From Nautilus pompilius (taxonomy: Eukaryota > Mollusca > Cephalopoda > Nautilida > Nautilidae): 64,000 nt of DNA. The stretch lies in NCBI GenBank assembly GCA_018389105.1, contig JACATO010000304.1:1054001-1118000 (forward strand). The letters run 5' to 3'. How positions within the stretch are numbered: the first letter of the stretch is position 1; each line of letters starts with the position of its first letter. A program made the translations under genes and the position numbers. The notes below the pieces were generated by a model, which was given only the letters and a program-made list of their open reading frames with translations, did no database searches and had not been told where the DNA came from. This document shows, piece by piece, positions 5,283 to 52,002 of the stretch.

Positions 5283-6130
5283 GATTATAGGTGAAAGACT
5301 ATAGGTAAGAATTGTCTTCGTGGAAGGAACAGATAATGCGAACCATAGGTGAAAACTATCTTCGTGGAAGGAACCGATAGAGCGAACCATAAATAAGAAC
5401 TGTTTTCGTGGAAAGAACCGATAATGCGAACCATAAATAAGAACTGTTTTCGTGGAAGGAACTGATAGAGCGAACTATAAATGAGAATATTCGTGGAAGG
5501 AACTGATAGAGCGAACCATAAATGAGAACTATCTTCGTGGAAGGAACCGATAGAGCGAACTATAAATGAGAACTGTCTTCGTGGAAGGAACTGATAGAGC
5601 GAACCATAAATGAGAACTGTCTTCGTGGAAGGAACCGATAGTGCGAACCATAAATGAGAACTATCTTCGTGGAAGGAACCGATAGAGCGAACTATAAATG
5701 AGAACTGTCTTCGTGGAAGGAACTGATAGAGCGAACCATAAATTAGAACTGTCTTCGTGGAAGGAACCGATAGTGCGAACCATAAATAAGAACTGTTTTC
5801 GTGGAAGGAACTGATAGAGCGAACCATAAATGAGAACTATCTTCGTGGAAGGAACTGATAGTGCGAACCATAAATAAGAACTGTTTTCGTGGAAGGAACT
5901 GATAGAGCGAACCATAAATGAGAACTATCTTCGTGGAAGGAACCGATAGAGCGAACTATAAATAAGAACTGTCTTCGTGGAAAGAACTGATAGAGCGAAC
6001 CATAAATGAGAACTGTCTTCGTGGAAGGAACCGATAGAACGAACCATAAATGAGAACTATCTTCGTGGAAGGAACCGATAGAGCGAACAATAAATGAGCA
6101 CTGTCTTCGTGGAAGGAGCGGACAGAGAGA
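5283..6130. repeat. 44-bp minisatellite, about 19 copies
   Basis: A unit such as CTTCGTGGAAGGAACCGATA plus GAGCGAACCATAAATGAGAACT repeats every 44 bases (for example AATGAG at 5521 and again at 5565). Variants switch GAACC/GAACT, GAGCG/GTGCG and ATGAG/ATAAG. Because 44 is not a multiple of 3, each minus-strand frame (180, 84 and 60 codons) reads all three phases of the unit in turn (FALSVPSTK, YGSLYQFLPR, IVRSIGSFHE). The open frames exist only because the unit has no stop in any phase on that strand. I do not call them genes. Confidence 0.9.
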
Positions 6131-8280
6131 AATACCAAAATAATGAGGATAATAAGTTTATAACTGAACTGGTCTACATTAATATAACTGAGCCTTTAAT
6201 TTTAAAATTTTACCCCTTTGATTAGTCGCCATAGTTAACGAAAGCTATTTTTATTTGCGTATCGAAGGAATCCGTTTCCTTCCATAAGTTTTATTTGACC
6301 TAACGGCAATTTCTCAAACGCTGTTCGTCTAAAATATAGACTCTCGATCCTGTGCAAAAGAGGTTGAACAATTTTACTTATTCTGTGATCGGCATACATT
6401 TGAAAAGGTTCCATTCAAGAGAGCAAAAACACCTTCCCATTAACAAGATTTATGGGCTCAATTACCTACATTTTCAAGAGCTTTTTTTCCCCACTTTTTT
6501 ATTATTTGCATGCTTTAGAAATCTTTTACTTGACAAAAGTTTGGTTGTTTGTTGACAAGTTTTGATATCCGGAAGACAGATCTAAGATTTGGTAAACACA
6601 ATAGGCACGATACTGTGGGAACTCTTTGTAACTTTTAAATAACTTTTATTTAGGAATCTTTTGTTTTTAACATCGCGCGCGCACGTGTGTAGAAAATGTT
6701 CTGTTCTCCTTTTGTTGTTGCCCATCTCTGAAACTAAACGGTTTCACTCTTTTTCTCACTTATATTCAACTCTCCCGGCTTGGACCCGCTAGTTAGAGGC
6801 CGTATATTTAGTCAGCAGTCGTAAGCAAAACACGTGAGATTGCATAGGTAATCGAGTTTGTCGCCAGATGGTATATTAACGACTGACGGGGAAGGTATTC
6901 AGTGCCACAGCTCTTAGACCTGGGTGCTGCGAATTACAGCTTTCAAGGGTAGATGGCAACAAATGCACCCAAGATGGCATGCAGAGAATTAAGAAAAACT
7001 AAATACAGTTAGTAGATTCAATGAAATGGAATCATGTTTTGTAATAACTGACCTATGTCTGTAATATCAAAGAATTTTAAGCATTTTTATTTTCGACGTC
7101 TGGCGAATGCCTATCAGTGACGCCATAGCTCTTCTGTCAAAGAAAACAAAAAAGAGCGGGCAGAGTAGAGCATGGAGTTTGGATGGGTTTAAGTTTTTAT
7201 TTAAAAAAAAGAAGGATAAATGACACGAAATGTCTGTTTGTAAAATACCGATATGAAAATATTTGGTTAATTATTTCTGATAAACATTTGAAAAAATTAT
7301 AATCAGTGATCATCTATCTGTTCGACGCACGAATCGTGTGCGCACTCAAGCGACCTGTTGCGAATATTGAAACAGTTCTTTTAAGAAAGTTGGCATTTAA
7401 CCAGGAATGGATTCTGATCGTGAAAAGGACCCCTGGTTTTACTGGCTGAATCCGTCGTTCCGTTTCGAATTCAGTGCGACGCCAGAACTTATCTCGATCG
7501 TCGAGAGAGTTGGGATCATAGGAACGTTCTTCTAAATCGCCGATAAAGAGGTTAACGGAGTCCGTTCCGTATGTCAGCGGGGTCGGGTTCAGTTTTATCC
7601 GCATCTCTACCACTCAAAAGAAAAAGGGAGAAAGCTATGCATTTCTTCTACTCTTCTCTTTATGTTCGCAGAAGCCGGCAGAAAGAGGTTTTCATTCTCG
7701 GGGAGTCAGAAGCGGAACGAGAGAGATTCTCTCGGCGGGTAACGCACGTGAGTCATGGCTAAGTGTTTCTTTACGCGGTGGCATCCACCCTTTCAATGAC
7801 TGCACATGGCGAGAATATATCAGAAGCGCATCGAAGAAGCCGACGGAATCCGAAATGCGTTTCTTTCCGCCGATGATTAAGAAAACGTTCTGACGGCGAT
7901 CGGATGTACTATTAAAGCACGACGGCGTGTTCATTTAGTTTTCCAACACACGCTAACGTGAGAGGTCGTTACTGAAGTCTTCTTCATCAAATCTCTGGAA
8001 TCTGTCCCTGACTTAGAATTTCTTTGGATAATAACACTTATCTTGGAATTCTAAGATTTTGTCGATACCTGCGCATCTCAATTATGCAATACTTTGTAGT
8101 AACAATGTTTACCGTCCTGTTTTTCATTATTAATCAGAATGATACAATTTCTTTCTTTTTTTAAATTCATGACGATACCTTATTAATTACTTTCAATGGT
8201 TTCACAGCCACGAGTCGGTGTATAATTTGCTGTGAATGATATAATTTATTCAGAACTATTTCCTGATGGTTATTCAGGAG
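6131..8280. other. anonymous DNA with locally GC-richer part
   Basis: Mostly AT-rich. From about 7310 to 7940 the base content rises and open frames occur on both strands, including a 99-codon minus-strand frame at 7314-7613 with no recognised motif. It could be an exon remnant or chance. No splice or polyadenylation context supports a gene. Confidence 0.4.
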
Positions 8281-11540: not shown

Positions 11541-12570
11541 AAAAAAATGTCGTTCTTTGACATTTTCAGATAAATTCAGCTCTCTTCTTTATTTTCTTTT
11601 TTCTGGAAAAAAATTCGAACGCGTCATCGCCTCCAATTCTTGCCAGCATCTATTCAACAAATGATCTACATATTTAAATCTAGTTACCAATTTCTCGGTC
11701 GGTCCCGTTTTTCTGACCACGTGTTCCTTATATTGAAATATGTCCGACGGATGATATGAAATAAGAAAAGATTTTACCGCCATAAATAACCATGAAAAAC
11801 GACTGATTCGTGCTATGTCTGCTTTTAGATAAAGATTTATTTAGTTATAAAGAAATAGAACAAAACCAATTTTTCAGAAACTAAAGGTATTTCGCATGAA
11901 CACGTAATCAGAATAGATTTTGAATATTATATTTAGATTTTATCTTTATGATTTAAAAAATACGTCTCCTAATCTTTTCTGTTAGCAGAGAAAATCAGCA
12001 ATTGTACACTGCTGGTATCTGCAGATATCTTTCACTGATAACGTGAATGCAGACAACAGGGAAAAAAGAACAATGCCTCGGTTTAAAATAAACGGAAGAC
12101 AAAAGATCTCCACCGAAAGAAACCAATTAAGGTAAATTAATTGATGCAGTTCAAAACAAAGAATTTTGAAGTATAGGTACTACAGCTGCAGTTCAGTATG
12201 GTTTTTATAGCTGAACTAAATCGAGTGGAAGTTCACTGACAGTATTATTAGTAACAGGGTTATGGATGAATGAAACAAACTACCATCGATATCTATTGAA
12301 AGTTTCACTAATGAGTATCTTATTGTCTTCGGATCCCTTTTAAAAGTCATATGGCTTATTGACAACTTGTATCGATTAAAAAAACAGGCACGACAGTACG
12401 TTATCCTTCACTATTTCTGTCTCATGAGTCGCACGTGAGTTTGCCCGCGGATTTTCTCATTTCACTAATGTTTAAATTTGAAAAAATGTAACGCTTTTAG
12501 CATTATCTTTTTAAAGTTTAATTTTTACGAGTTCAGCCGCAATATCATTGTAAGAAGAATAAATCATAAA
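11541..12570. other. AT-rich flank of the DNA transposon
   Basis: No features seen up to the TTA duplication at 12571. Confidence 0.4.
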
Positions 12571-12573
12571 TTA

Positions 12574-12698
12574 CACTGGGGAACACTCATTTTGTTGCAT
12601 TTAAAAAAATACTTTTTTCTAGTCAATTTGAATATGTAGATTTTAATTTTAAAGTCGGTTTTTGTCTGCAAGCTACAGATTTCATGCAATTTGACATT
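12574..12698. repeat. left terminal inverted repeat
   Basis: It starts CACTGGGGAACA and ends just after ATGCAATTTGA (to 12694). It pairs with the repeat at 14745-14881. Confidence 0.75.
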
Positions 12699-12791
12699 TT
12701 TTATTTTTCTTTATTTTAACAAATTCCAACATTAATCAAAATTATTCTGTTCACTTTAATCTTAAAACGGCAAAAAAGTCATTTAAAAATA

Positions 12792-12797
12792 TTTATT
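12792..12797 (-). promoter_or_regulatory. polyadenylation signal AATAAA
   Basis: TTTATT on the plus strand gives AATAAA on the minus strand, about 100 bases past the stop of the transposase-like frame and inside the element. Position and orientation fit that gene. The motif is common in AT-rich DNA. Confidence 0.45.
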
Positions 12798-12898
12798 GAA
12801 GCAAAAGATAGAGAATTAAAAAATTTTATGAGTAAATTAAATTATTATCTAGTGTTGATCGTGCCATATTTTCATTAGTTTTTATCTGAATGTGTATT

Positions 12899-14624
12899 TT
12901 ATCCAGGAAGGAATTTGCGTTTGTAACTTTTGCGTTTGTACACTTTATCTTGGCAATCTCGTTTAATGCTCCAGCAGTAGTCAGCCATCATGCTTTTGTT
13001 CCAGCGCCCTTGGTAACGTTCTTCCATGATCTTTAGGTCTTGGTGGAATCGTTCTCCTTGTTCGTCACTTACAGCTCCCAGATTGTCAGGGAATTTATCA
13101 AGGTGGCTGTTCAAAAAATGAAGCTTGATGCTCATGTTGCACCCGAGATCACGAAAAGCGAGGAGCATTGTGTTCACAAGATCACAGTAGTTTTCCGCTT
13201 TATAGTTTCCGAGAAAGTTCTGAACAACTGCCACAAAAGATAACCATGCTGCTTTTTCCAAAGCATTCATCTTAGCAACAAACTGATTATCACGAAATAG
13301 TGTTCTAATTTGTGGGCCATCAAACACACCTGCTTTGATTTTTTCAAATGATAACCCTGGTAAAGCTGTGATGATGTGTTGAAAACATTCACCTTCGGTT
13401 TTTAGGGCTTTAACAAATTGCTTTATCAAACCTAATTTTATGTGAAGAGGAGGAAAGATGATCTTATCTCTGTTTACAATTGGCTCTTTTATGATATTTG
13501 GCATGCCAGCTTTAAGAGTTTCACGGATAGGCCAGTTCTTTTGGACCCAATGTTTGTCTCGTGCTCGGCTGTCCCACATACAAAGGAAACATGGAAACTT
13601 GGTAAAACCTTTCTGTTGTCCAAGAAGAAAATTGACTATTTTTAAGTCCACACAAATGATCCAATTGTGCTCATGATATTTTAATAAGTCCATGACTATT
13701 CTCACATCATCATAGTCTTCTCGCAAATGCACAGAATGACCGATAGGTACCGCGCTCCATAAACATTGCCATTATGTAAAAGAACACACTTTAGACTACG
13801 TTTTGAACTGTCCAAAAAGAGTCTCCATTCGGCAGGATTATAGTAAGATACACCCAGTTCTTTAAGAAGCCCTGGAATGTCATGGCAGTAAACAAAATGT
13901 TTGTCTTCTGAAAAGAAAGCTACAAAAATTTGGTCACGATTTCTAAAATATGAAACTTTAACAGAGTGATCAACAAGAATTCTACTTTGTAATCTTGATG
14001 CCAAAACCTCTGCTGCTTTTTTTGAAAGGCCCAAATCTCGCACTAAATCATTTAATTCAACTTGCAGAAGAGGCTTAGGGGTGGGAAAAGGTTCAGAGTC
14101 TGAAGAACAATTCTCCGACGACGAACATTTTTCTGCCACTTCACTGTCACTACTATTTTGTTTGTTTGTATCATCTTCAATGTCTTTATCGTCTAATGAA
14201 GGTAAGCCTTTAAATATTGGAACAGGAACTTCTCTAGAGTGGGGAGTAGGCCGAATAGCTGAGGGAATGTTTGGATACGTAATTTTATGTCGGTTTTTTT
14301 TCCAACTCCCGATGTGTTTACCATGCAGAAATAACAGTCAGTTAAATGATTGGTTGTTTCACGCCAAACCATCGGAACTCCAAAAGGTAGACTTTTACGT
14401 TTTCCTTTGGTCCAGTCTCGAAGCATTTCTTCGCAATTGTGACACACAACATGAGGCGCCCATTGCTTGTCTTGGTCACCAAGATGAACTTCAAAATATG
14501 CCTTGTAAGCACGCTTGACAAAGGAGGATACATTACGTTTTTGACGATTTAGTGTGTACCATCCACATATGTAGCAGAAGGCATTAGGCTTGTTTCTGCA
14601 ATGATTTCTCTTAATAGAAGTCAT
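12899..14624 (-). pseudogene. conserved CxxC protein of unknown family, probable transposase, two frameshifts
   Basis: This intronless frame of about 575 codons starts at ATG 14624 and ends KRKFLPG before the stop at 12899. Near the N-terminus lie CYIC (residues 17-20), CHNC (61-64) and CYFC (97-100), probably zinc-binding. The last part (12899-13732) has ICVDLK, then CFLCMWDSR, FDGPQIR and SDEQGERFHQD, an Asp-Asp-Glu layout with CxxC after the first Asp, as in several cut-and-paste transposases. Two indels break it: one in a run of eight A (14294-14301), after which RHKITYPNIPSAIRP continues in the next frame, and one in CGCGC (13751-13755), after which VPIGHSVHLREDYDD continues. I know this family from many invertebrate genomes as uncharacterized proteins. 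The transposase role is inferred from the flanking inverted repeats. The good conservation implies a young copy. Confidence 0.8.
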
Positions 14625-14744
14625 GTTTAAACTGAAACAAATGATAAATTATAATTTAATTATAAAAATACAAAAAGTTATAAATTTATATGGACATGAA
14701 AATGCTTATATATGGTTTACGTAAGTTCACATTGTAAAATTTCA

Positions 14745-14881
14745 CTAACCTCAAATTGCATGCAAACTAAAGCTTGTAGAGAAAAACTAATTTCAGATTT
14801 GAAATCAGCGCCTAAAGTTCTATCAAAATTTGTTAAAATATTCCATGCAACTGAAAATTATTTAAAATTTGTTCCCCTGTG
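14745..14881. repeat. right terminal inverted repeat
   Basis: Inverted counterpart of 12574-12698, with outer end CACAGGGGAACA on the minus strand. It lies upstream of the transposase-like start codon, so it probably contains the promoter. A TTTGTTTCAG acceptor-like string just before the ATG (about 14632-14641, complement) leaves room for a 5-prime UTR intron. Confidence 0.75.
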
Positions 14882-14884
14882 TTA

Positions 14885-17800
14885 TCTTCCCCTTATCCAC
14901 ATGCACCTTCACAAGCCTGCAAAAAATGAATCCCAAATCAACATAATATAAAAACCAACAAAACTTTTGTAACGACCTGATGTTATATTAAATAAGAAAT
15001 CCATAAATAACTTTCCACTCGCACCGGACAAACTTTCATATTTAAAGTCAGTAAAAATGAGTAAACTCCGTTGTCTGACATTAATTATGAAGATATTCTC
15101 TGTATTTCAGTTGCAAACACATTAAAAACATTTTTATAGAATTTCTTAAGCCAAGGATGTGGTTTATTCCGAAAAAAATCTCCAGTTGTTTGTAGCTTAA
15201 TTTTCCATTAACCAGTCTGTTATACAACACCCTGATATAATAAAAAAATAGTGGTGAAGATGTAGAGATTTTATGGAAACAGATTAAAAAAACTAATGAA
15301 AACAAACAGTTTTTATAGGGTTAATTTTTTCAGCAGCTCATAAAAGAAAATAAGGAAGTGGAAGAATTCTACAATATTTGGAAATTTTGGTGCAGTTGTC
15401 CGCAACTGCGCAGAAAACCCACAGTCTGAGAGAGATCTTGATGCATCTATTTGAAACATCGATGCCAAACATTATTTCTCGAAAGGTTTTGATTTCTGGT
15501 GATTGTGAGACGCGTGTAGGTGTGTGTTTCCATATCTACAAAGTTGGTTTCGTCAGGTGTGGATCAACCATTAGACATGGAAGCCGCATGTTCGGATTAG
15601 TGCTGCTCAGGTTCCTTAAGTAAGTCATTAAAGGTAAAGTTTACCTGACGTGTTTTTCTAATGGTGGGGAAGAGAAAAAGAACAATGTGTAAATTAAACT
15701 GTTTATTGCGCTTTTATTTTTAGTTTGTCTTCTGTCTTGAAAATCGAACATTAAAGATACGATAACTTATTATTAAAAGAAACTAAGCAGCTTAGTGCGA
15801 CATTGAGTCGATAAATAATATCTAAAAGACGGTGTTATTTACCTCACGCCTTTCTAGTTCTAGAATTGTCTACAACTTAGTTTAGGGGAGTGGTTGTATA
15901 ATTTATTTTTGATATTAAAAACGTTTGCAGTTGCAAAATAATCATCTTTTATTTGATGAATTATAGATTAAAGAACAGTCCTTATTTCTAATATTTATAA
16001 AGAATGTAAAGTTCAATCAAAATGAATGTTTCAGTAAATATTTTAAACGAGAAACGGATCTAACAATAAATGATGTGTACAGAATAATATTGGAAGCTAT
16101 CCACGTATGAGGGGTAAAACGAGGAACCCTCATCTATTTATTGTCAGAATAAATTAAATCTCTAAACTTAAAGCGAAAGGTTATAGAAGAGACAGGACGT
16201 TATCGGACAACAGCCAAGAAGGCGGGCCCAACGTCAAAGCTACAAAAATTGGTAAAGTTCACCACCTCTGGAACCAAGCTAAACGTTGTTCGAGGAAACT
16301 CGGTCTTTATTCGCTGACATCAAGGTCGTTATATATATGATGCTAAATGTGAAAGATAGAAAATGCCGTGTAAAGATGGATTTTATGTCAGTCATTCATT
16401 GTCAGCTGGTGCAGAAATTCTCTTAGGAATAACAAACTAAATCGCTTTATTAATAGAGTTTATTGCTTCTATTCAACATAGTCTGCTTAAATATTATTGT
16501 TATAATTTTTATATTATTTAATAAAAATCCTAGACAAAAGAATCAAATGTCATATAAAAATATCGCTTGTTACCTATTTAATTCCAGATTATAAAGAATT
16601 ATTTGGATTCTTCAACATAGGGAAAAAAGTGTAAAGTAAGACATAATAGGTAATAGATTTAAATTTAAAAAACAAAAACATTTTTGAATGTTGCAACGGT
16701 TAACATTAAAAGTAATCTCGTGAAATATTAATTTAAAGTCTACGCGTAGCCGGAGAGAAACACCGAAAGCCACACAACTTAAGTATGCATTTCTAATTAT
16801 GACTCGGTTTCCAGGTAAAACTGCCACAAAATAACAATTCTTATAAGATATAGTTAAATAAATTTGATCGAATTGAAAACACCATGTTGTGATCAGAGCT
16901 CTTTTGCACTGAGACTGGAACGATGTGACGACAAAATTCATACTATCGCACACAGCACATATCAGTTTCATCTCGCACAACAATAACGTATACGAAGGCG
17001 TTTGTGCTCTTTCCGACAGAATTCTGGCATCTATCAAGTGATTTCAAAGTGTCTAAAATTTCAATCAATTGCATTTTTTTTTTCAAAATGAACGATGCAA
17101 GTACATTTTTATCAAAATCTGTTTCAGTTATGCAGTAAATAACTCGCCCTTATTAATAGACTGATATTCCTTTAACTTTTAGAAACGTGGTTTCTCTTGC
17201 GAGAAGCCGAAAGTTATTTACGTACTTCACACAATCTTCACGGAACTGTACCCTTTCTATCCTTATAAATAGATGTTATGCTGTTCGTCAGCGTAAAAAT
17301 AAATATGCTAGGTATTTCATGGTCATTTATTCCTAGTACATTTATATTCTCTGTCGGTAACCCGAACGGATCAGATAATAACCACCAACGGTCAAGCCTT
17401 AGAGTAGGCAGGGTTAGGATAAAACATCCCACTTCATTTGCTATGCGTTCTTAAGACTGACACGGGCTATATGTGGAAAGGGCGTTAATCGCACCTGAAG
17501 TGGCTAAACCAAGTTGTTTCTTTTGGAAAGCCCAGCTAACACGTTCCCGCAAAATTTCGCATTACTAAGCGGTATTCACTCTAACATCCTTTGAAACACA
17601 GTCTGTGTAAACGATGCCTTTCTTGTTTCAAAACACAGGGCATTACACTAGCAGATGAGCGCTGAGAATTAATTTTCCTCGGAGCCTGAAGCCGGAATTA
17701 TTTCATTATTTAGATCTTTATGAAGTGAAGTGTCTGGCCCTTAATTCTCTATAGAGAAAGGTCTTTTTCACTCTTCACTGTTTTTCTGCAAGAGTTCAAT

Positions 17801-44110: not shown

Positions 44111-45825
44111 TATTGGATTTCTTGCAAATGCAGGAAGTTCATTTAGGATCAGTAAATTATGTAGAAAGGCTAAAGTGGAAACTTCAGAATTTCCCCTGAT
44201 TGGTGGCAAGATCTACCGGATTGGACATACTCGGGACGTAAGGCTGTCAAGTGGCAATAAATTGATCCGAATCAGTGTCCGAAGCAATTTTACCGGAGAA
44301 ACACAAGATTTCTACCTATCTGTAGCAGTTAAGACAGGAATAATGCGAAAGGATTAAAAGTTTGATGCAGTATTTTCTGCGATCCGAGCCAATAAAAGGC
44401 GTCCATGCTGCATCACTTGGAAAGGTTTCAGTGCTCTTGAATCAGTTCATCGTGAAGTAATTCATCGAGCATCACACCGTGAGCGACAGCTCTGAGACAC
44501 CACTTTACAATCTATATTCAAATGGCGAAACCGGTATTTAGTAAATTTATGACAAAACAACGTTGTGATTATATCATTTATCGCGTAATTCGGATCTGTT
44601 TGAAAGGTCATTCCACTTTATCTTCAGTGGCTGCCATCGAAAACAAAAGACTATCTTCTGCTACGCGCCATTTTTATGATGCTCAGCATTTTTTTTCTTG
44701 CATTAACCCTTTGCATACCACCACGTGGGGCGCATTTTGGACTTAAACGTTTTGCGTTACTCGGCGCCGGTTGAGCCACAGAGGTTGTGATAAGCCAGTA
44801 CCTTTCTCGTCAATGTAATCCAGGAATGACTCCTCAACAACTAAAGTCTGATTCCCCTCCCCTTTTATTTTCACCGGAAACTTTAAATCCCTACCTCGCA
44901 ACAATCTCTCAACAGAAATTACATTTACATTTTACAAGACGCGTGCCTATTGGTATTGGAATATTCATTAGATTTTCTTTTCTTTTCGAGTGTGTATCTC
45001 ACGGGCGATGTCAGTCAATGTCAGTCTTTACCAACTGCAAACTAAAGTTACACAATTATGTCACTGACACAGCCAATTGTCGCTTATTCTAATTTTAAAT
45101 TAGTTTTCCTTTTGCGTGTCTAAAAGGACAAAAAATAAATCCAAACATCATTGCGATACAGTGGTAAATAGAAAATACGTAATATTAAGTTTATTAAGCG
45201 GAATTATTAGACCGTTTTTCGTCCTCTATTTAAAGTTTCGTTTAGACCTCAAAAGCGGGACACATACAGGCGGGATTCTGTATCCTCATCTTGTTAAAGG
45301 AACTGAAAGGTTGAGGGTACGAAGACGTTTTACACAATGATCTTCGGAGAGGCGGAAGGTCTTAGTCAGTGGCGTGGGGTAGATTATTGTTAAGCTGCAA
45401 AATTCTAGGCACCGATTCTATTTCACGTACCTCTGCTGGTTTGTTTTCTTTCTTGTCCTTCTCCTCTCGAGCTGATGGCCTGGGTTTCTTTCATGTTTTT
45501 TTTTTTTTTAAATTATTAAATGAGAAATTTAAGTGGGGATTTCCCTGCCCTGAAGTCCAGGACCATGTGATGCAGGGTTGACAACTTTTTCTCCTGGGAA
45601 TAATCAGGGAAGTATGCTTCCTATCCAGGATTGTCTTTCTTGTAGACATCGATGCACGAAACCTACCAATGGGAAATACAAATCTTTGTTTAGACAAAGG
45701 ATAACCTTACTTATTGGGGATTACAGAGACATTTAATAGTTATAGCCAATAAAACAAACAGAAAAAATGTGCCTGCTCACATGCTTCTATACATGTATCA
45801 ATATACAATTTTTTCTCTTTATTGA
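44111..45825. other. anonymous DNA with a TTAA-CCCTTTG string
   Basis: At 44704-44718 TTAACCCTTTGCATACC resembles a piggyBac-type end at its TTAA target, but no partner end or transposase was seen. Small frames at 44522-44746 and 44787-45092 show no motifs. Confidence 0.3.
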
Positions 45826-46952
45826 GAGGGAGAGAGATGACGTCAGTACAGAGAGAGAGAAATGACGTCAATACAGAGAGAGATGACGATGACATCAGTA
45901 AGAGAGAGATGACGTCAATACAGAGAGAGAGAAATGACGTCAATACAGAGAGAGATGACGATGACATCAGTACAGAGAGAGATAACGCCAATACAGAGAG
46001 AGAGATGACGTCAATACAGAGAGAGATGACGATGACATCAGTACAGAGAGAGAGATGACGTCAATACAGAGAGAGATGACGTCAGTACAGAGAGAGAAAA
46101 ATGACGTCAATACAGAGAGAGATGACGATGACATCAGTACAGAGAGAGAGATGACGTCAATACAGAGAAAGAGAGATGACGTCAGTACAGAGAGAGAAAA
46201 TGACGTCAATACAGAGAGAGATGACGATGACATCAGTAAGAGAGAGATGACGTCAATACAGAGAGAGAGAAATGACGTCAATACAGAGAGAGATGACGAT
46301 GACATCAGTACAGAGAGAGATAACGCCAATACAGAGAGAGAGATGACGTCAATACAGAGAGAGATGACGATGACATCAGTACAGAGAGAGAGATGACGTC
46401 AATACAGAGAGAGATGACGTCAGTACAGAGAGAGAAAAATGACGTCAATACAGAGAGAGATGACGATGACATCAGTACAGAGAGAGAGATGACGTCAATA
46501 CAGAGAAAGAGAGATGACGTCAGTACAGAGAGAGAAAAATGACGTCAATACAGAGAGAGATGACGATGACATCAGTACAGAGAGAGAGATGACGTCAATA
46601 CAGAGAAAGAGAGATGACGTCAGTACAGAGAGAGAAAAATTACGTCAGTACAGAGATAGAGAAATGACATTAATACAGAGAGAGAAAAATGACGTCAGTA
46701 CAGAGAGATGACGTCAGTACAGAGAGGGATGGCGTCAGTACAGAGAGAGAGAAATGACGTCAATACAGAGAGAGATGACGATGACATCAGTACAGAGAGA
46801 GATGACGTCAGTACAGAGAGAGAAAAATGACGTCAATACAGAGAGAGATGACGATGACATCAGTACAGAGAGAAATGACGTCAATACAGAGAGAGAGATG
46901 ACGTCAGTACAGAGAGAGAAAAATGACGTCAGTACAGAGAGAGAGAGAGAGC
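45826..46952. repeat. GA array with about 30 TGACGTCA palindromes
   Basis: Units of roughly 21 bases, such as ATGACGTCAATACAGAGAGAG, alternate with GATGACGATGACATCAGTAC. I counted 30 exact TGACGTCA octamers by eye, plus variants (TGACATCA, TACGTCA, GGCGTCA). TAACGCCAA recurs at 45983 and 46321, and TACAGAGAAA at 46161, 46499 and 46599, giving a 338-bp higher-order period and a 100-bp one. Frames of 65-122 codons on both strands are repeat artefacts, since the units are near multiples of 3 and lack stops. Confidence 0.95.
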
Positions 46953-48257: not shown

Positions 48258-49215
48258 GGCAATACCTCGCGTACAGTTCACACGTACAGAGATATACAGA
48301 CAGACGCCTCGCGCACAGTTCACGCGTACAGAGATATACAGACAGACGCCTCGCGAACAGTACACACGTACAGGGATATGCAGACAGACGCCTCGCGAAC
48401 AGTTCACACGTACAGAGATATACAGACAGACGCCTCGCGAACAGTTCACACGTACAGGGATATACAGACAGACGCCTCGCGAACAGTTCACACGTACAGG
48501 GATATACAGACAGACGCCTCGCGCACAGTTCACACGTACACAAATATACAGACAGACGCCTCGGGAACAGTTCACACGTACACAAATATACAGACAGACG
48601 CCTCGCGCACAGTTCACACGTACACAAATATACAGACAGACGCCTCGCGCACAGTTCACGCGTACAGGGATATACAGACAGACGCCTCGCGTACAGGTCA
48701 CACGTACAGAGATATACCGACAGACGCCTCGCGAACAGTACACACGTACAGGGATATGCAGACAGACGCCTCGCGAACAGTTCACACGTACAGAGATATA
48801 CAGACAGACGCCTCGCGAACAGTTCACACGTACAGGGATATACAGACAGACGCCTCGCGAACAGTTCACACGTACAGGGATATACAGACAGACGCCTCGC
48901 GTACAGGTCACACGTACAGAGATATACAGACAGACGCCTCGCAAACAGTTCACGCGTATAGAGATATACAGACAGACGCCTCGCGAACAGTTCACACGTA
49001 CTGGGATATACAGACAGACGCCTCGCGAACAGTTCACACGTACAGGGATATACAATACAGACAGACGCCTCGCGTACAGGTCACACGTACACAAATATAC
49101 AGACAGACGCCTCGGGAACAGTTCACACGTACACAAATATACAGACAGACGCCTCGCGCACAGTTCACGCGTATAGAGATATACATATAGACGCCTCGCA
49201 CAAAATTCACATGTA
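48258..49215. repeat. 42-bp minisatellite, about 22 copies
   Basis: The unit is about CAGACAGACGCCTCGCGAAC followed by AGTTCACACGTACAGRGATATA, repeated every 42 bases. Variants are GCGCAC, GCGTAC or GGGAAC after CCTC, and CACAAATA for CAGGGATA. As 42 is a multiple of 3 and the unit lacks stops in several frames, long frames exist on both strands (266 and 270 codons plus; 317 and 141 minus). The plus frame repeats RRLANSSHVQGYTD, and the minus one repeats CLYIPVRVNCSRGV. No signal peptide or consistent start precedes the repeats, and opposite strands are equally open. I call a minisatellite, not a protein. Confidence 0.9.
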
Positions 49216-51268
49216 CAAAATATCTGTACTGTTAAAAACAGTACAGAAATAGAGATGTATATGAAAATGGTGCTAACAAGCTGACAAGTAGAGGGTTGTG
49301 CCTAAACTCCGGCTAGACACCGCTGCCCCAAAAGATAGAAATCAGTAGAACATAAAACAGAAGTATTTACCATCAAGTGGATGGCCCATCTGAGGCACCA
49401 GATAATTCTGAATCGGCGAACCCGATTCGTTCTTGCCACTCTGCGATGCACAACATGCATGTGCCAGCTGAAATAGTACCCATGCTCAAACCGAATGTGA
49501 AAGCTCACTTGTGGTGCTGCTGAATGATGCGAGTGCACAAAACAGAGCAACTGTTCTTCCAGAAGCTCTGTAACAACTGACAGCCAAAGTAGCGCAGAAC
49601 TCACGTGACGGCCGCAGTCTACACTAACGTCAAAACAGAAGATGGACGGGGAAGTGAGCGATCAGTGTAGCAGTCTGTTAACAGAGTGCCAGACAGGGAC
49701 CTAAACCGAACAGCTGGACACTCGATGGTTTCTATTTAGTTACCGTATAAACGACAGAAGTTAGCATGTGTTAGCCAGCCCTCAGAACACGATACAAACA
49801 CCATACCGATGTTTAACAGGACTCCGAGGCTGAGCAAAAACAAACTGTCGCAAGTAGTCGTCGATTCAATTTAATATCATAATTTGGTTGGGCAGTTCTG
49901 CTCTGGAAAAGAAGTTACTCGGCCGGGAGTCCGTCCATACCGGAACATGTGCTCGTTTGTGACGAGCGAGCAAACAGCCCTCATAATTTCTCGAAACTTA
50001 AAGGGACAGTCACAGCTCCCGCACAACGGAAGGCAGATATGAGTCTATAGCGGCGCTGGACTGAAAATCAATATCTTCAGAAGTAAACAGCAGCTGGCAG
50101 GAATTTCTGCCAAATCCTCCGTGGAAGACGTCCGATGGTCATCCTGTAGCCGAGAGAAGTATTTAGTGAGCTTCTTTCCTACTATGTGCCAGGTTATCGT
50201 CGAAGAATCACTAGAACCTTCAAATTCAGAATTAATTCTCTTGCAGTTTGACAATGGCGACGATCCACGAAGGTGAGAAATCACGAACGTTGTAGAGAAA
50301 ATGTCTAAAACCAGGCTCAGGAATTGCGACTTCGAAACCCCTCGTCACGGTACCACCTGGAAAGAAAGCTTTTCTTTAAGATATGATTCTTTCCTCCGTC
50401 ACGCCTCCGCTCGAATATTTTTTAAAACGCGGATTTTGTTGTCGCTAATATCGCCAGAACTGGGCAAAAACCGATAACAAAACGAGTCATTTAAGATCCA
50501 GATATTGAATTTCTATCACTAACTCGGTTCCAAGAAAAGCCAGTCATCGGCAACGTCAAAGTTATCGAGAGCGTATTTGGTTTGCTGTACGATAGCGGAA
50601 ATAACAAACACTCGAGGACCGTCGTCATTGTAGATCGATCCAGCCTACCAAGAGATTTTCCAGAGGAAACGCATTAAAAATATCCTTCAGTAGGATGCAG
50701 CTGGCATAAGGCATGACACTGGGAAGTTAGGCCGGCTAACAGGACGAGCAGCTAAAGTCACCTTTAAGGATGACAGTTTACGGGGCACAAGTCCTTCGGG
50801 TAAGGAATGGTGGGGGGGAATTGAAGGAAGGGCTCACGCAGGGCCCACAAGTGAAGGTGTAAAACCTATGCGAGGATAAACGGAAGGTCGGAATGGTATA
50901 AGCATAAGCATTAGAATGGGAAGAGAAAGCTGATTTCATTGTGTTGGATGTAAGACGTATCACAAGATAGATACAATTTTCTTACCTTTGTTTAGAACAG
51001 ATTTATGAATTAGTAAAAAAAATACAAAAGCAGACAAAAATAAGGAGAATTGTTCATTTACATGTAACATAAATGGTGTCCTGCTAGCCACGGTATTTAT
51101 AATTTGTGTTGTTGTATCACTGAGTTCCATATAAACTAAAAAAAAACGGTCTAGCTTTTGTCTGATTAACCAGAAAAAACAAAAATTTACGAAATCAGGG
51201 TGTTTAACCTATGCTGCAAAATATAGAATCCAAATACTGAGAAATTAAATTTTTATTTTTTAAACAGA
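49216..51268. other. anonymous DNA, moderately GC-richer
   Basis: Contains a 100-codon minus-strand frame (49302-49604) and a 79-codon one (50045-50284) with no recognised family. No repeats or elements were identified. Confidence 0.35.
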
Positions 51269-51491
51269 AATGACGTCATCTCTCTCTCCCTCCCTCTCTG
51301 TAATGACGTCATATCTCTCTCTCCCTCTCTGTACTGACGTCAAGTCTCTCTCTCCCTCCCTCTCTGTAATGACGTCATATCTCTCTATGTAATGACGTCA
51401 AGTCTCTCTCTCCCTCCCTCTCTGTAATGACGTCGTCTCTCTTCCTCACTCTCTGTAATGACGTCAAGTCTCTCTCTGTAATGACGTCAAG

Positions 51492-51523
<32 letters not shown>

Positions 51524-52002
51524 CTCCCTCTCTGTACTGACGTCAAGTCTCTCTCTCCCTCACTCTTTCTGTACTGACGTCAAGTCTCTCTCTCCCTCCC
51601 TCTCTGTAATGACGTCAAGTCTCTCTCTCCCTTCCTCTCCGTAATGACGTCATCTCTCTCTCCCTCCCTCTCTGTAATGACGTCAAGTCTCTCTCTCCCT
51701 CCCTCTCTGTAATGACGTCAAGTCTCTCTCTCCCTCCCTCTCTGTAATGACGTCAAGTCTCTCTCTCCCTCCCTCTCTGTAATGACGTCAAGTCTCTCTC
51801 TCCCTTCCTCTCCGTAATGACGTCATCTCTCTCTCCCTCCCTCTCTGTAATGACGTCATATCTCTCTATGTAATGACGTCAAGTCTCTCTCTCCCTCTCT
51901 CTGTAATGACGTCATCTCTCTGTAATGACGTCAAGTCTCTCTCTCCCTCCCTCTCTGTAATGACGTCATCTCTCTCTGTAATGACGTCAAGTCTGTCCCC
52001 CA

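Follow-up and report, generated by a model that had tools for sequence, protein, structure and literature searches.

Positions 12574 to 14881 of the window, the 64,000-nucleotide stretch of the Nautilus pompilius genome analysed here, are a complete and correctly bounded DNA transposon, which duplicates TWA on insertion, has multiplied recently and includes copies with an open transposase frame. From its ends, target and motifs, compared with published descriptions, it very probably belongs to Chapaev3, a group within the CMC DNA transposons. The element belongs to this known kind and not to a new class of mobile element; with it, an apparently unannotated multi-copy protein becomes the transposase of a described group.

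The initial annotation had proposed a TIR-bounded cut-and-paste element with inverted ends and TTA directly outside both, and these features are borne out in the sequence (Table 1). The two 12-bp TIRs differ by one mismatch. Recomputing the 37-base inner inverted block that had been reported gave the same count, 31/37 ungapped matches, and the block could be extended to 56 bp at 77%. Neither its local score nor its 37-base count was equalled in any of 300 shuffles of both end regions. Among 296 random segment pairs of the repeat-rich window, one equalled the 37-base count and two the local score; taken alone, the in-window statistic for the inverted match is only fair. Both ends are exact because 37 of the 40 genome places scored cover the query from 1 to 2308 whole.

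Table 1. Features of the transposon in window coordinates; residues are numbered on the open 574-aa copy L040
Feature	Position	Strand	Remarks
Whole transposon	12574..14881		2308 bp; gene on minus strand; 37 of 40 scored genome places match 1-2308 entire
Left TSD, TTA	12571..12573	.	Preceded by A at 12570
Right TSD, TTA	14882..14884	.	T next at 14885
Left TIR, CACTGGGGAACA	12574..12585	+	Identical in 29/29 copies
Right TIR, CACAGGGGAACA	14870..14881	-	Of 29 copies, 1 differs at one base and 1 lacks the last three columns
Subterminal inverted block, left arm	12639..12694	+	56 bp, 77% to right arm
Subterminal inverted block, right arm	14751..14806	-	56 bp, 77% to left arm
Transposase gene	12899..14624	-	Three overlapping frames here; single 574-aa frame in 4/29 copies
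N-terminal CxxC pairs C17/C20, C61/C64, C97/C100	14325..14576	-	Conserved in both families covering the region; candidate zinc-/DNA-binding
D272, proposed first catalytic Asp (LFLDSS)	13810..13812	-	Putative role
D326, proposed second catalytic Asp (ICVDLK)	13646..13648	-	Putative role
C(2)C motif, C345-C348 (CFLC)	13580..13591	-	Motif alignment across families
LH motif, L393-H394 (PPLH)	13442..13447	-	Motif alignment across families
H(4)H motif, H502-H507 (HFLNSH)	13103..13120	-	Motif alignment across families
E524, proposed catalytic Glu (SDEQGE)	13052..13054	-	Putative role

Copies were sought in the 727.6-Mb assembly, which comprises 2558 contigs, the window lying on contig C295. Among 40 places scored of 1649 candidates, 37 were full-length copies including that of the window (98 to 100% identity; the other 36 at 98 to 99%), and the remaining three were partial matches only. 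With the 200-bp left terminus as query, 40 of 79 candidates were scored, and with the right terminus 40 of 100; the copy numbers of this family are therefore lower bounds. Pairing of these ends by eye led to further copies of about 2.2 to 2.3 kb, and no short derivative of the window family was found among the pairs formed from the scored candidates. For detailed comparison, 29 of the 37 full-length copies were chosen for distinct flanks; the copy on C557 (L027), whose match was split, was left out, and seven others were outside the sample. CAC...GTG termini were present in 28 of the 29, the exception being L029, in which the last bases are altered. The many copies ending exactly at CAC...GTG that the initial annotation had named as support for a mobile element are therefore present. 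Pairwise differences among the 29 copies ranged from 0.04 to 1.14% (mean, 0.55%), and the window copy lies 0.39% away from the majority base. Of 170 variable columns in the alignment, 158 were singletons, a star-like pattern that points to a recent burst.

Perfect 3-bp duplications, either TTA or TAA, flanked 27 of the 29 copies, and neighbouring offsets gave at most one match each. The two exceptions were L029, where the altered last bases are followed by TTA-T, and L038, with TTA against TAA. An A lies ahead of the left TWA in all 29 copies, and a T follows the right TWA in all 28 with an intact right end. Only two triplets occur, and 378 of 812 cross pairs between copies also match, which leaves empty sites as the best proof of the duplication. 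When the joined flanks of ten copies were used as queries, 20 of the 40 scored matches were the copies' own flanks and 20 spanned the join of a single site, L053 on C1091, at 76 to 83% identity; the other nine joined sites had no spanning empty site among these 40 matches. All six of the empty sites fetched carry a single TAA where the filled L053 site reads TAA-element-TAA. Both 3-bp duplications and empty sites, proposed at the outset as the check on transposition, were thus recovered.

The coding region proposed at 12899-14624 is real, though in the window it is not one open frame. A 574-aa open frame, the only long gene in the 2308-bp element, is kept by L040, L041, L043 and L045, and a stop-free frame of 582 residues was listed at C557 in the protein search. 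There are 11 substitutions between the window copy and L040, and the window copy has in addition gained 2 bp near 13751 and lost 1 bp near 14293; these two indels break the frame and split its coding region into three overlapping frames. No full-length protein can come from this copy, and its movement would depend on transposase supplied by an open one.

Open frames of another origin were also seen in the window. Tandem arrays with a 44-bp unit (5308-6131; 18.8 copies) and a 42-bp unit (48265-49217; 22.6 copies) are open in several frames and hence produce long spurious ORFs. Arrays of AG/CT-rich units at 45825-46948 and 51383-51994 share the word TGACGTCA in opposite orientation.

Alignment of the motifs suggested a putative D-D-E triad, assigned by motif position only, of D272, D326 and E524, each kept in the families covering it. 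The first catalytic Asp is most likely D272 in LFLDSS. The layout in the initial annotation had included the Asp of ICVDLK and the Glu of SDEQGE, and both are retained here, the former as the second Asp; D272 had been overlooked because LFLDSS sits in another frame of the broken window copy. The Asp of FDGPQ, also put forward in that layout, is not needed as a catalytic residue once D272, D326 and E524 fill the D-D-E positions. D326 and C345 are 19 residues apart, the same spacing as that from D708 to C727 in RAG1. Three CxxC pairs lie within residues 17 to 100 and are Chapa-like by position only, the Chapa zinc-finger domain having been named for Chapaev3 (PMC4411706).

A second family, Chapaev3-like as well, was found in the same genome. 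Its copy L059 (C131:971392-973907) measures 2516 bp, has perfect 12-bp ends (CACTGGTCAACA) and carries a 562-aa frame, the protein of which is 58% identical to that of L040, with the same architecture and target. The CxxC pairs, D272, D326, C345/C348, H394, H502/H507 and E524 are all identical between the two. Identity between the families is 62% over the N-terminal 110 residues, 64% in the catalytic part and 38% in the linker; dN is 0.35, and dS is saturated, so that no ratio is given. Two further relatives carry internal stops, namely L060 (C1807:3055351-3056208; about 73% protein identity), in which the key residues after position 290 are also identical, and L061 (C663:1115237-1116097; about 84 to 85%), in which they are kept except C348, which falls in a frame-shifted stretch. 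These relatives point to several generations of one group in one genome.

A copy at another site, on C643 (1063086-1065602), matches the C131 copy at every one of its 2516 bp, and the 562-aa frame is present in each. Among 40 second-family places scored of 1082 candidates, six were full-length (99 to 100%) and 34 were internally deleted. The deleted copies comprise 27 that keep 1-228 plus 990-2517, four that keep 1-212 plus 989-2517 and three with junctions of their own, giving at least five different junctions in all. Copies with the main deletion lack the first 210 codons; their longest remaining ATG frame encodes 319 aa and retains the catalytic half from D to E. A single score, 439.5 bits, recurs at 72 of the 135 places scored in the protein search. 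The second family, having two identical intact copies and internal deletions in 34 of its 40 scored copies, looks very recently mobile.

From this family 20 sites were fetched, 18 deleted and two full-length. A TWA duplication was present at 19 of them. Of the 20 sites, 18 have A before and 16 have T after; both bases were found at 14, so the A/T rule is looser here, in contrast to the 'always' given for Chapaev3 in the description of PMC4079192. Using the joined flanks of one site as a query, all 40 scored matches spanned the join at 87 to 91%, and the three empty sites inspected carry a single TTA each. Segmental duplication was considered as the source of the copies and rejected: the left flanks were distinct at all 20 second-family sites, and the 29 window-family copies had been selected for distinct flanks. 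One deleted derivative (C79:788602-790654; L106-L108) sits in a repeat that by eye only has a hAT/ZBED-type look; all 40 scored matches to it elsewhere are without the derivative.

While the window element is ordinary in kind, the second family with its identical copies is the better side result. A tentative reading, plausible but somewhat short of probable, is that the genome holds a Chapaev3-type system moving now or until very recently. Its deleted derivatives may be passive riders, or they may act as the KP element of the P-element system does and code for a shortened protein that dampens transposition.

In the libraries searched, the protein family is uncharacterized, as the initial annotation had put it. 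In Pfam, neither the pieces of the window gene nor the intact proteins matched a curated family, with weak unrelated matches at most, and NCBIfam, PHROGs and PDB sequences gave none or weak unrelated matches; no match to the transposase was found in collections of viral, prokaryote-genome and phage sequences. None of these searches led to a direct match with a named Chapaev3. With no Pfam, NCBIfam or PHROGs model at the curated cut-off or a significant E value, pipelines resting on those would leave the gene uncharacterized. That description no longer holds in the wider sense, given that the ends, target site and motifs fit the already described Chapaev3. Pfam DUF1280 (PF06918) has been linked with Chapaev, in one clade with RAG1 (PMC3985635). 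The two open proteins did not match DUF1280 in Pfam, and genome searches with the DUF1280 and RAG1 models found no match; the controls for both models were silent too, so these results are no proof of absence. A literature search for the exact left-end string matched two papers, neither of them on transposons by title. Among the titles listed in literature searches there was no biochemical study of a Chapaev3 transposase, and none is known to us. Young copies with open frames occur in both the window family and the second family and could serve to test the function of a Chapaev3 transposase.

In the Chapaev3 reading, the 574-aa protein may bind the terminal 12 bp and the subterminal block via its N-terminal CxxC region. 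Excision would be carried out by the RNase H-like D-D-E site (D272-D326-E524) predicted from the motifs, and C(2)C and H(4)H presumably coordinate the zinc around which its insert folds. The ends could then be joined across a 3-bp stagger in ATWAT, and host repair of the gaps would make the TWA duplication.

The alternative with the most in its favour is that the element is not Chapaev3 but an animal EnSpm/CACTA-like element, or another CMCT one, whose ends and target are held in common with Chapaev3 or are alike by convergence. EnSpm elements differ from short one-gene elements in length and gene content, and their targets are not known to be TWA-restricted; the window element, in contrast, is short, TWA-restricted and carries one gene. 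EnSpm too has 5'-CAC..GTG-3' ends, 3-bp duplications and C(2)C plus H(3-4)H between the second D and E, the latter set being described as common to EnSpm, Mirage, Chapaev, Transib and RAG1 (PMC12730594), and these features do not separate it from the window element. Against it, the strict A-TWA-T target and the short single-gene element fit published Chapaev3, and LH together with H(4)H has been described for Chapaev (PMC4079192), making an EnSpm origin unlikely.

It was also considered that the protein is a passenger or a domesticated host gene and that the element is mobilised by something else, given that no library match marks the protein as a transposase. This is highly improbable, as the protein is the sole long gene of the 2308-bp element, its 58%-identical counterpart is likewise the lone protein of another element whose ends and target are of the same type, and the D, D, CxxC, H, H(4)H and E positions are conserved in the families covering them, one Cys in L061 excepted. 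PIF elements duplicate TWA on insertion, as does the window family, and have a layout of two genes, the second one Myb/SANT. A PIF/Harbinger-like element, suggested by the TWA duplication and by the 3-bp duplications canonical for Harbinger (PMC12730594), is scarcely credible, since the CAC...GTG ends, C(2)C, LH and H(4)H fit CMC instead, the 2308-bp element has no second, Myb/SANT gene, and neither the pieces of the window gene nor the intact proteins matched a PIF/Harbinger model of Pfam at E values up to 10. Of the two superfamily options left by the initial annotation, CACTA/CMC-like or PIF-like, only the CMC-like one is thus retained.

The preferred placement, in Chapaev3, agrees with what has been described for that group. 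Chapaev3 is one of the branches of CMC and is related to Transib/RAG1. Its description goes back to Kapitonov and Jurka, 2007-2008 (cited in PMC4079192 and PMC4411706). Transib/RAG1 resemble the window element in the metal-binding motif set (PMC12730594) and in CA...TG ends, but have 5-bp duplications (PMC4411706) rather than the 3 bp found here. In the account of Zhang et al. (2014, PMC4079192), Chapaev3 elements, including Merrow, Garfield and Conan, have CAC/GTG ends, C(2)C, LH and H(4)H motifs and a TWA duplication always with A before and T after; the window family has each of these features, in 2308 bp and with a protein of 574 aa, compared with 2,289 bp and 556 aa for the silkworm Chapaev3. 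The window family is single-exon, like most other Chapaev3 described there, whereas Merrow and Garfield have two exons. Lengths of 2.3 to 2.5 kb, proteins of about 560 aa, internal-deletion derivatives and paralogous empty sites, all reported for Chapaev3 in the same account (PMC4079192), are also found among the elements of N. pompilius.
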